IMG/VR virus record: IMGVR_UViG_3300028384_000657
Span: 1 to 64,000 of that record
Source: a virus
Reading direction: 5' to 3' (one strand)
Length of the DNA: 64,000 nucleotides
Shown in pieces: positions 27,960 to 61,600 of this stretch. The notes beneath the pieces were generated by a model, which was not told the DNA's origin, made no database searches, and saw nothing but the letters and a program-made list of their open reading frames with translations. Numbering within the stretch: position 1 is the stretch's first letter; each line of letters starts with the position of its first letter. Position numbers and translations under genes: made by a program.

Positions 27960-28004
27960 CTTAAACTACCCATAACTCAATTGTAGCAGTAAGTATGCTA
28001 TATT
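27960..28004 (+). promoter_or_regulatory. Pho-box-like promoter of the porin-pstS operon
   Basis: CTTAAACT (27960-27967) and CATAACTC (27971-27978) are 8-base units with the 11-base period of cyanobacterial PhoB boxes (consensus CTTAACCT); 27982-27989 is a weak third unit. Ten bases later is TATATT (27999-28004) with TGC before it. This geometry, box replacing the -35, fits PhoB activation under phosphate stress. Confidence 0.6.
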
Positions 28005-28054
28005 ACTTGGGCGATCGATCGGGGTCGCTTAAGTATACTTCACATGTAAAAGAA

Positions 28055-28429
28055 ATGAAAAAAGCACTGGCACTTTCTGCCCTGGCAGCACTCTCCGCTG
28101 CTTCCGTAGCACCTGCTATGGCTGGTCCTTACCTCACCACCAAAGTCGGAGTCAAGGGCGAAGGAAGCGAATTTGATAAGTCCTATGTAGAAACTCGTGT
28201 TGGTTATGAAACCAAGATGGGTAACCTTAAGCCTTATATCGAAGTTGGTCCCGCATGGGAAACTGGTAATGGTGAGGAGACTGAGAACTTTGGTCAACTC
28301 GAAGTTGGCACCAAGATCAAACTGACGGACAACCTGTCTTCTAAAGTCAAGGCAGAGTTCACCAACGCATTTGAGTCTGGTACAGATATGGAATGGAAGT
28401 ACGAAGCAACTCTAACTTACGACTTCTGA
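28055..28429 (+). CDS. Small porin-like outer-membrane beta-barrel protein
   Basis: 124 residues from ATG 28055, giving signal peptide MKKALALSALAALSAASVAPAMA then GPYLTTK. The mature part is alternating strands (YVETRVGYETKMG, LKPYIEVGPAWE, GQLEVGTKIKL, MEWKYEATLTYDF) and ends in Phe, the outer-membrane sorting mark. About eight short strands fit a small barrel. First gene of the pstS operon. The 61229 product is a paralogue. Confidence 0.7.
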   Translation: MKKALALSALAALSAASVAPAMAGPYLTTKVGVKGEGSEFDKSYVETRVGYETKMGNLKPYIEVGPAWETGNGEETENFGQLEVGTKIKLTDNLSSKVKAEFTNAFESGTDMEWKYEATLTYDF

Positions 28430-28471
28430 TCTATTAATATTTTCCTGTAAACACTTCCTCACGAATCTAAA

Positions 28472-29437
28472 ATGAAAGCAATCGCCGCTATTGCTCTGGG
28501 AGCCACCGCTATGGTCGCTCCTATGGCAGCTCAAGCAGGATCGTTGGACGGTGCTGGAGCATCGTTCCCTGCTCCAATCTATCAACGTTGGTTCAAGGAT
28601 TATACCGATAAGACAGGCAACCAAGTCAACTATCAAGCAGTTGGTAGTGGTGCTGGTGTCCGTCAATACAAAGCAGGCACTACCGACTTCGGTGCGTCTG
28701 ACAAAGCAGTTTCTGATAAGAAACTTGCTGGCATCTCCCGTCCTATGGTTCAGATCCCTATGACTGGTGGTGCAATCGCTGTTGCATACAACAAGCCTGG
28801 TTGTGACCTCAAACTGTCCCAAGTCGAACTCGCTAAGGTCTTCTATGGACGTATTGATAACTGGTCGCAGCTCGGTTGTGCTGCAGGTCCTATCACTGTC
28901 GCTGTTCGCTCTGATGGTTCGGGCACGACCGCTGGTTTCACCAACTCTCTTTCTGCTTTCTCGCCTTATTGGGCAATCAAAGTAGGACGTGGTAAGTCGG
29001 TTGCATGGCCCGCTGCTGGCACTGTTGGTGGTAAGGGTAACTCTGGTGTTGCTGGTGTTATCAAGAACACCCCTGGTGCGATTGGTTACTTGAACTATGG
29101 TTATGTTGTTGGTGGCAAGTTCCAACAGGCTGCTGTTCAAAACAAAGCAGGTAACTATGTGAAAGCAAGTGGAGAAACCTCTGCTGCTGGTCTGTCCCAG
29201 ATCAAACTGGACAGCAAACTGCGTGGATCCGACGCTAATCCCGCTGGTGCTAACGCATTCCCTATCGTTTCTCTGACCTGGATCCTTGCTGAACCTGGTC
29301 ATAAGACCGATGCAGTCAAACCTGCTCTTCGTTATATGCTGAGTGAAGAAGCACAAGGTATTTCAGATTCTCTGGGATATGTACCTCTCCCCGAGTCTCT
29401 TCGACAGAAGTCCCTTGCTGCTGTGGAGGGTCTTTGA
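28472..29437 (+). CDS. pstS: Phosphate-binding periplasmic protein PstS
   Basis: 321 residues: signal peptide MKAIAAIALGATAMVAPMAAQA, then GSLDGAGASFPAPIYQRWFKDY, the phosphate-site loops (GSGAGVRQYKAGTTDFGASD and RSDGSGTTAGFTNSLS) and a C-terminal YMLSEEAQGISDSLGYVPLPE typical of PstS. It supplies phosphate to the host PstCAB importer during infection. Known as PhoB-regulated in cyanophages, consistent with the upstream box. Confidence 0.96.
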   Translation: MKAIAAIALGATAMVAPMAAQAGSLDGAGASFPAPIYQRWFKDYTDKTGNQVNYQAVGSGAGVRQYKAGTTDFGASDKAVSDKKLAGISRPMVQIPMTGGAIAVAYNKPGCDLKLSQVELAKVFYGRIDNWSQLGCAAGPITVAVRSDGSGTTAGFTNSLSAFSPYWAIKVGRGKSVAWPAAGTVGGKGNSGVAGVIKNTPGAIGYLNYGYVVGGKFQQAAVQNKAGNYVKASGETSAAGLSQIKLDSKLRGSDANPAGANAFPIVSLTWILAEPGHKTDAVKPALRYMLSEEAQGISDSLGYVPLPESLRQKSLAAVEGL

Positions 29438-29438
29438 T

Positions 29439-30698
29439 ATGATTATTGAGCTCCTCAAACTGGTAGCAGTACCAGTAGCAATTGGTGGAGCATTGGTTGG
29501 GGCGGATATCACCGCCCTTTCTAGTGCTATCGCTGGACCTGCTTTTGAGCAGGTTGGTCAGTATGGAGTCGGTGAAGATTCCGCTGCTGAAATTATTGCA
29601 TCTGATGGAAAAAACCTCGCATACACCAATTCGGATAAAGGAAGTGTTGACTTCGTTAACATTTCTGATCCTTCTAACCCTACCGCTATCACTGCTGTGG
29701 ATGTCGGCGGTGAACCAACCAGTGTGGCGATCCACGACGGATATGCGGTTGCGGCTGTTAACACCTCATCATCCTACACGAATCCATCGGGCAAGGTGGT
29801 AGTGATTGATATGTGGGACTATAAAGTAGTAAAGGAGATTTCTCTTGCTGGTCAACCAGATGCTGTGTCTATTAGTCCCGATGGCAAGTTTGCTGCTATT
29901 GCTATTGAAAATGAACGAGACGAAGACCTCAACGATGGACTGATTCCTCAGTATCCTGCAGGTAACGTCGCTATTGTAACTCCTGGGGGTGAAGTAACTT
30001 ATGCAGATGTTCGTGGTCTCGCTGGCATTGCTCCTAGCGATCCTGAACCTGAGTTTGTTGACATCAATGACAAAGGTGAAATTGTTGTTACTCTTCAAGA
30101 GAACAACCATATGGTTGTTCTTGATTCCAGTGGTAATGTCATCTCCGATTTCGATGCTGGCAAGGTAGACTTGTATGATATTGACGACACCAAAGACGGT
30201 TATTATATGCCTGTTGGTTCTCGTCAGGGTGTACGTCGTGAGCCTGATGCTGTTGCTTGGATCGACAACGATCACTTTGTTACTGCTAATGAAGGTGACT
30301 ATAAACTGAAGCGTCGTGGTGAGCACAAGCGTGGTGGATCCAGAGGGTTTACAATCTTCCATAAGGATGGTAGTATTGTGTATGACTCAGGTAACACCTT
30401 TGAGAATACTCTCGCCAAGGCAGGTTACTGGAACGACAAGCGTGCTGAGAAGAAAGGTGTTGAACCTGAATCCGTCACGGTTGGAACTTACGGTGGCACT
30501 CGTATGCTGTTCGTAGGTGCTGAGAGAGCAAACGCTGTTGGTGTTTATGACATCACTGACCTGTCTGCTCCTAAACTCCTCCAGATCCTCCCTACGGGTA
30601 AGGCACCTGAGGGTCTTCTCGCTCTAGAAGATGAAGGTCTCTTCATTACTTCTAACGAGAAGGATGCCAAAAACTCTATTTCTATCTTTAAATTCTGA
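29439..30698 (+). CDS. Beta-propeller exported protein (choice-of-anchor I / phosphatase-like)
   Basis: 419 residues from ATG 29439 (GGAGGG before). Hydrophobic N-terminus, then propeller blades: VDFVNISDPSNPTAITAVDVG, VVVIDMWDYKVVKEISLAGQPDAVSISPDGKFAAIAIENE, the FVTANEGDY motif, and GVEPESVTVGTYGGTRMLFVGAERANAVGVYDI. This is the choice-of-anchor I / esterase-like propeller family, at times annotated as an alkaline-phosphatase-type enzyme. Position after pstS supports phosphate scavenging; catalysis is unproven. Confidence 0.75.
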   Translation: MIIELLKLVAVPVAIGGALVGADITALSSAIAGPAFEQVGQYGVGEDSAAEIIASDGKNLAYTNSDKGSVDFVNISDPSNPTAITAVDVGGEPTSVAIHDGYAVAAVNTSSSYTNPSGKVVVIDMWDYKVVKEISLAGQPDAVSISPDGKFAAIAIENERDEDLNDGLIPQYPAGNVAIVTPGGEVTYADVRGLAGIAPSDPEPEFVDINDKGEIVVTLQENNHMVVLDSSGNVISDFDAGKVDLYDIDDTKDGYYMPVGSRQGVRREPDAVAWIDNDHFVTANEGDYKLKRRGEHKRGGSRGFTIFHKDGSIVYDSGNTFENTLAKAGYWNDKRAEKKGVEPESVTVGTYGGTRMLFVGAERANAVGVYDITDLSAPKLLQILPTGKAPEGLLALEDEGLFITSNEKDAKNSISIFKF

Positions 30699-30907
30699 TG
30701 AATTGTGACCCCAAGTGGAAGAAGTGGTGTATTGCCTGCTGCTCATCGCAACTATGGATATTCCCAATGCTTCTACTTGGGATTCTTATTGTTATTGAAG
30801 GTGTTCATACCGATGCTCACCGAAAGATGGAAATGGATGTTCATAACTATTGCAAACAAAATGCAGAACATCAAGAGAATTTGAAATTTAATGATGATGA
30901 TTGGTAA
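30698..30907 (+). CDS. Small single-pass membrane protein, Cys/Trp-rich
   Basis: 69 residues, start overlapping the propeller stop as TGATG. CDPKWKKWCIACCSSQLW then membrane segment IFPMLLLGILIVIEGV and a polar His/Asp tail. End of the phosphate operon, before a terminator. Confidence 0.65.
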   Translation: MNCDPKWKKWCIACCSSQLWIFPMLLLGILIVIEGVHTDAHRKMEMDVHNYCKQNAEHQENLKFNDDDW

Positions 30908-30930
30908 ATGTATACATAATACATAATTAA

Positions 30931-30954
30931 AGAGACCCTCAGGGTCTCTTTTTA
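30931..30954 (+). terminator. Rho-independent terminator
   Basis: 8-bp stem AGAGACCC/GGGTCTCT, TCA loop, five T. Nearly the same stem as the gp23 terminator. Confidence 0.88.
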
Positions 30955-61062: not shown

Positions 61063-61088
61063 ATTTATAAGTGTTAATGCTTATAAAT
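61063..61088. promoter_or_regulatory. Palindromic late-promoter-like element
   Basis: ATTTATAAG (61063-61071) and CTTATAAAT (61080-61088) are perfect inverted 9-mers, spacer TGTTAATG. The right arm continues as TATAAATA (61082-61089). Could be a bidirectional late promoter or a dimer-binding operator. Confidence 0.5.
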
Positions 61089-61118
61089 ATTCCTCGTAAC
61101 GTTACTAAATTGTAACAC

Positions 61119-61228: not shown

Positions 61229-61600
61229 ATGATTAAAACTGCTTTCGCAGCTGCTGCTGCTCTCTCCATGTCCGCTGGCGCTGCTGTTGCAGGTCCGTAC
61301 GTCAACGTGGAAACCAATGCAGGTTGGACGGGATCGGATTACACTGGTGCCGCGACAGATTTCCATGTAGGCTACGAAGGTCCTCTGGGTGATACTGCTT
61401 CCTACTATGTTCAAGGTGGCGGTACTCTGGTGACTCCTGACAGTGGCACTGACGATTTCGTTCCTTCTGGTAAGGCAGGTGTCGGTGTTGCTCTGAGCGA
61501 TGCCCTGGGCGCATATGGTGAAGTCTCCTTCGTCGGTTCTGGCGATGAGGACATCGACCGCGGCTATGGTGCTAAACTGGGTCTGAAGTATTCCTTCTGA
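61229..61600 (+). CDS. Small porin-like outer-membrane beta-barrel protein
   Basis: 123 residues from ATG 61229 (GAGGT nine bases before). Signal peptide MIKTAFAAAAALSMSAGAAVA then GPYVNVE; alternating strands (DFHVGYEG, ASYYVQGGGTLV, GKAGVGVALSD, LGAYGEVSFVG, YGAKLGLKYSF) and terminal Phe. Same length, cleavage junction (AxA-GPY) and ending as the 28055 product, so a paralogue. Own strong promoter and terminator. Role: perhaps solute entry. Confidence 0.7.
   Translation: MIKTAFAAAAALSMSAGAAVAGPYVNVETNAGWTGSDYTGAATDFHVGYEGPLGDTASYYVQGGGTLVTPDSGTDDFVPSGKAGVGVALSDALGAYGEVSFVGSGDEDIDRGYGAKLGLKYSF

Follow-up and report, generated by a model that had tools for sequence, protein, structure and literature searches.

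Which signal switches on a pstS-containing operon in a phage genome, and what do the genes around pstS contribute during infection? These questions are raised by a locus in a 64-kb stretch of DNA (the window) from a virus record of 74,151 bases. The window belongs to a T4-like cyanophage, a virus of ocean cyanobacteria: Hsp20 and DNA polymerase gp43 genes lie around the operon in the order typical of T4-like cyanophages, and 331 phage records match a 4.1-kb query, nearly all of them named Synechococcus, Prochlorococcus or Cyanophage. We favour, with a probability of roughly 0.8, a Pho-regulated auxiliary metabolic operon of this phage, in which host PhoB, PstS, a propeller protein and a small barrel would play the roles set out below.

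Operon layout

The locus comprises the following features, the -10 score referring to the weight matrix described in the next section.

27960..27967, plus strand: Pho unit 1, CTTAAACT, 7 of 8 positions matching YTTAAYYW
27971..27978, plus strand: Pho unit 2, CATAACTC, at an 11-bp period, 6 of 8 positions matching the consensus
27996..28004, plus strand: extended -10, TGCTATATT, 10.5 bits in the matrix
28055..28429, plus strand: barrel, a 124-aa secreted small outer-membrane-like beta protein (PF24653 Phage_OMP, PHROG 417, T4-GC 241)
28472..29437, plus strand: PstS, periplasmic phosphate-binding protein with signal peptide (TIGR00975, phrog_5385)
29439..30698, plus strand: propeller, 419 aa, choice-of-anchor I family (PF22494, phrog_23282)
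30698..30907, plus strand: 69-aa single-pass membrane protein with HTxAH motif (phrog_27060)
30929..30951, plus strand: intrinsic terminator closing the operon, a 10-pair stem followed by a T-rich tail

The barrel was taken to start at 28055, the start that provides the signal peptide, within a longer in-frame ORF opening at 27995. The propeller gene begins one base past the end of pstS and its stop overlaps the start of the 69-aa protein; this tight spacing, together with the terminator at 30929-30951, argues for one operon. Homologues of the 69-aa protein follow either the barrel or the propeller in many phage contigs. Family matches bear out the gene content given in the initial annotation (small barrel, PstS and choice-of-anchor I propeller), and the identity of PstS is certain, its score against the TIGR00975 equivalog (262 bits) lying above the cut-off of 205.

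A Pho-type promoter

Two Pho octamers with an 11-bp period are present at 27960-27978, as had been proposed, and in eight related promoters seven of the eight columns of unit 1 are at least 88% identical. The ten bases initially said to separate the box from the -10 do not apply to unit 2, which lies 17 nt from TGCTATATT, and are roughly right only if TGTAGCAG (27982-27989) is taken as a third unit. We discarded this third unit, which is not conserved in relatives; its sole hint is an 11-bp-shorter spacer in three promoters. The arrangement is that of a cyanobacterial Pho box, i.e. tandem YTTAAYYW or CTTA-N7-CTTA units that repeat every 11 bp and are closely followed by a -10: the pair agrees with the published consensus YTTAAYYW (PMC10976474) at 13 of 16 positions and with CTTA-N7-CTTA with a single mismatch. 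Agreement at 13 or more positions occurs at 76 places in the window, so that the consensus alone is not significant for the site, and a consensus scan was rejected as sole criterion since it is too weak to call it. The paper that gives the consensus also cautions against relying on phage Pho boxes predicted by bioinformatics (PMC10976474). A sigma-70 scan of the window did not pick up the promoter, which is what one would expect if it depends on an activator.

Could the box then be a chance match, with transcription of the operon starting at ordinary phage promoters of the early or middle class or reading through from hsp20? Such a view can draw on the frequency of 13-of-16 matches in an AT-rich genome and on the interval between hsp20 and the operon, in which no terminator was found. 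It has to be weighed against the conservation of the promoter. When the regions upstream of the barrel gene were aligned from relatives with unrelated flanking DNA, two TTAA-type units at an 11-bp period, a fixed gap and TGNTATAAT recurred in most of them. A weight matrix was trained on 13 promoters of barrel-pstS operons from other cyanophages, with the window and its close kin left out. It gave the window site 21.4 bits and the next best site on either strand of the 64 kb 7.8 bits, which places box and -10 combined at rank 1 with a margin of 13.6 bits; the box alone, with both units, scored 10.9 bits and ranked second. Ten order-1 Markov sequences as long as the window had maxima of 6.9 to 13.8, none of 3000 background windows of 180 bp reached 20 (gaps of 16-17 scored), and nothing above 5 was found in the remaining 10 kb of the 74-kb record. 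With a score far above all background and a box conserved across unrelated flanks, we consider a chance match hardly credible.

The same architecture extends to other cyanophages. Among 80 viral barrel loci, 55 have pstS directly after the barrel and 47 of these score at least 20, a count that includes training sequences or near copies and allows gaps of 5-6 and 15-18. Box and TGN lie 16 nt apart in 43, 17 in 10, 18 in one and 5 in three of 57 distinct cyanophage barrel promoters, which were collected for fitting the pattern and thus describe the class rather than provide an independent test. The promoter of P-SSM2 is among them. The gap-5 class (L157, on the same contig as L022, L169 and L141) is 11 bp tighter than the common class, which amounts to one helical turn and keeps the helical phase. 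Judged by this comparison of promoter sequences, the initially proposed control by host PhoB appears strongly supported, and the comparison yields a sharp, testable promoter rule made up of units, spacing and helical phase.

As a separate observation, the spacer between box and -10 is filled in about a dozen promoters (L160, L178, L140, L207, L172 and L152 among them) by a 20-bp palindrome, ACAGGAT-N6-ATCCTGT or ACAGATC-N6-GATCTGT. Spacer palindromes with arms of at least 5 occur in 16 of 54 promoters, compared with 3.1 expected from shuffling. They could represent a candidate operator for a second regulator; the promoter of the window has none.

The barrel and its link to the promoter

With which gene of the operon does this promoter go? 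Natural contrasts among cyanophages are informative here. No promoter site was found in S-IOM18 and syn9, which have hsp20 and neither barrel nor pstS, nor in S-RIM12, in which pstS follows straight after hsp20 and the barrel is missing. In S-H35, which has the barrel and lacks pstS, the -10 is kept and the box has decayed to a score of 1.1. In twelve contigs, the box precedes a barrel gene in the absence of pstS, and a small membrane protein is the only gene recognised after the barrel; hence phosphate transport is not all that the box is linked to. Taken together, the contrasts and the twelve contigs suggest that the promoter tracks the barrel more than pstS, making an uncharacterised barrel the gene that seems most tightly linked to the Pho switch. 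We tentatively raise the possibility, which we think rather unlikely, that a cyanophage Pho regulon began with the barrel rather than with PstS and has the barrel as its constant member, itself serving the infection of phosphate-starved cells, and that pstS and propeller were added later behind its promoter. If true, envelope remodelling or a superinfection block by the barrel would be examples of such a function.

Several variants of the layout were noted in passing. The twelve contigs represent minimal Pho-box operons of a barrel and a small membrane protein with an HTHAH motif, free of pstS and propeller. At L020 and L149, the order is barrel-propeller-pstS instead of barrel-pstS-propeller, still behind a Pho box. 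Tandem barrel genes occur at L003, L010, L020, L016 and other loci without hsp20, the upstream copy being about 22-33% identical to the barrel of the window. The window itself holds a second Phage_OMP-like gene (61229-61591; 24-28% identical to the barrel of the operon), which lacks a Pho box but has TATAAATA, a late promoter sequence of the T4 type, at 61082-61089.

The barrel had initially been regarded as an entry pore for phosphate or phosphoesters. It matches PF24653 Phage_OMP over its full length (124 bits, cut-off 27, E 4.7e-36) and is thus a member of that family. A true porin would be in keeping with this outer-membrane barrel family and with the position of the gene at the head of a Pho operon, whose box stays with the barrel even without pstS. 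The AlphaFold2 model, at a moderate mean pLDDT of 77, points elsewhere: 101 mature residues form six predicted strands, whereas a porin is a closed barrel wide enough for diffusion, with 12-18 strands and often trimeric. Known single-chain pores have more than six strands. The best structural matches are small barrels, i.e. OmpX, OprF and OmpA, together with designed barrels (modest Z of 7-10). From the model, a diffusion pore is unlikely, and we give the idea of a porin admitting phosphate or phosphoesters a slim chance.

The propeller

The propeller gene is called phoA in relatives, and according to a review (PMC5083919) it is unclear what phage phoA does. Its product scores 60 bits against PF22494 (cut-off 32), which makes it a member of the choice-of-anchor I family, and has a hydrophobic, signal-like N terminus. 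In structure searches with the model (pLDDT 86), seven-bladed WD40-type chains match its whole length. VIA-align listed general propellers, and as the Foldseek and VIA-align matches are mostly generic propellers, the fold does not show the function. PhoX was not among the fold matches listed, which leaves room for kinship.

Does the propeller release phosphate, as first suggested? Acidic and polar motifs invariant across 40 relatives (IENERDED, DPEPE, QENN, REPD, ANEGD and KGVEPE) favour a metal-dependent enzyme, and a role as phosphate releaser is plausible given the name phoA in S-SM1 and the occurrence of the propeller, among phage records, solely in those with pstS. One might argue instead that the promoter is Pho-controlled and that the propeller is a secreted binding protein carried along with pstS rather than a phosphatase. 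General WD40 and YncE-like propellers returned by the fold search would fit this view, as would the score of 147 bits against the NCBIfam model NF038117 for choice-of-anchor I, which stays under the cut-off of 300, and the alphaproteobacterial relatives, among whose conserved neighbours, judged by eye, no recurrent phosphate gene was evident. It accords less well with motifs that look catalytic or metal-binding, with the Sphingobium phosphotriesterase propeller 5hrm at Foldseek rank 2 (E 1.8e-12) and with the presence of pstS in all nine phage records that carry the propeller, and we regard a mere binding protein as doubtful.

The nearest cellular relatives found, in a comparison set made up of other than cyanobacterial genomes, belong to the Rhodobacterales and are about 50% identical; plasmid searches likewise gave no cyanobacterial entry among the matches listed. 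The choice-of-anchor I model also matches in the S. elongatus control genome. The cyanophage copies of the propeller group in a single clade, which lends no support to separate acquisitions by different phages. The phage gene shares its name with atypical PhoA (PhoAaty, the PhoA of Synechococcus PCC 7942 and marine relatives), for which conserved Asp/Glu-rich motifs have been described (PMC4548154), a likeness to the propeller that is one of description.

A model for the operon

How might the operon work during infection? In a phosphate-starved Synechococcus cell, phosphorylated host PhoB would bind the two 11-bp-spaced units, as the conserved architecture and published relatives suggest, and bring the RNA polymerase of the host to the extended -10. 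A single transcript would then deliver barrel, PstS, propeller and small membrane protein when phosphate is short. Periplasmic PstS, to judge from its family, would feed the PstCAB importer of the host, and the propeller would most likely act as atypical PhoA enzymes do, hydrolysing organic phosphoesters either in the periplasm or on the cell surface. The barrel would reside in the outer membrane, more likely as a small surface or envelope protein than as a diffusion pore. Read in this way, the operon would be another clear case of lytic phage genes placed under a host nutrient sensor.

Comparison with known systems

The initial annotation took the locus for a notable complete scavenging unit, but the unit is not new: a description of the phosphate cluster dates from 2010 (PMC3037559), and Zeng and Chisholm tested how it is regulated and, as cited by the review PMC6359870, found phage pstS and phoA raised in phosphate-limited hosts. 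Sullivan and colleagues reported promoters flanking pstS, phoA beside pstS in S-SM1 and S-SM2, and a Pho-box scan (PMC3037559), and host PhoBR is reported to control pstS of P-SSM2 (PMC10976474). The cluster is annotated in S-SM1, S-SM2, Syn30, S-BM1 and Sf-CH5, and the operon DNA is about 86% identical to that of S-SM1, Syn30, S-BM1 and S-SM2. In P-SSM2, barrel and pstS (PSSM2_247-248) follow a promoter that matches in box, spacing and -10 architecture, but the phage lacks the propeller, its barrel is about 39% identical to that of the window, and the pair lies at another genomic site. The closer counterpart is the S-SM1 cluster SSM1_172-175 (DUF680 barrel, pstS, phoA and a hypothetical gene), which shares genes, order, promoter and the neighbouring hsp20 and DNA polymerase genes, with 87% identical DNA over 94% of the 4.1-kb query. 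Its phoA corresponds to the propeller of the window at 95.5% identity, whereas the barrels are only 77% identical and the boxes show point differences (CTTAAACTGCCCTTACCC against CTTAAACTACCCATAACT). The arrangement is thus already known from relatives such as S-SM1 and is ordinary for this phage group.
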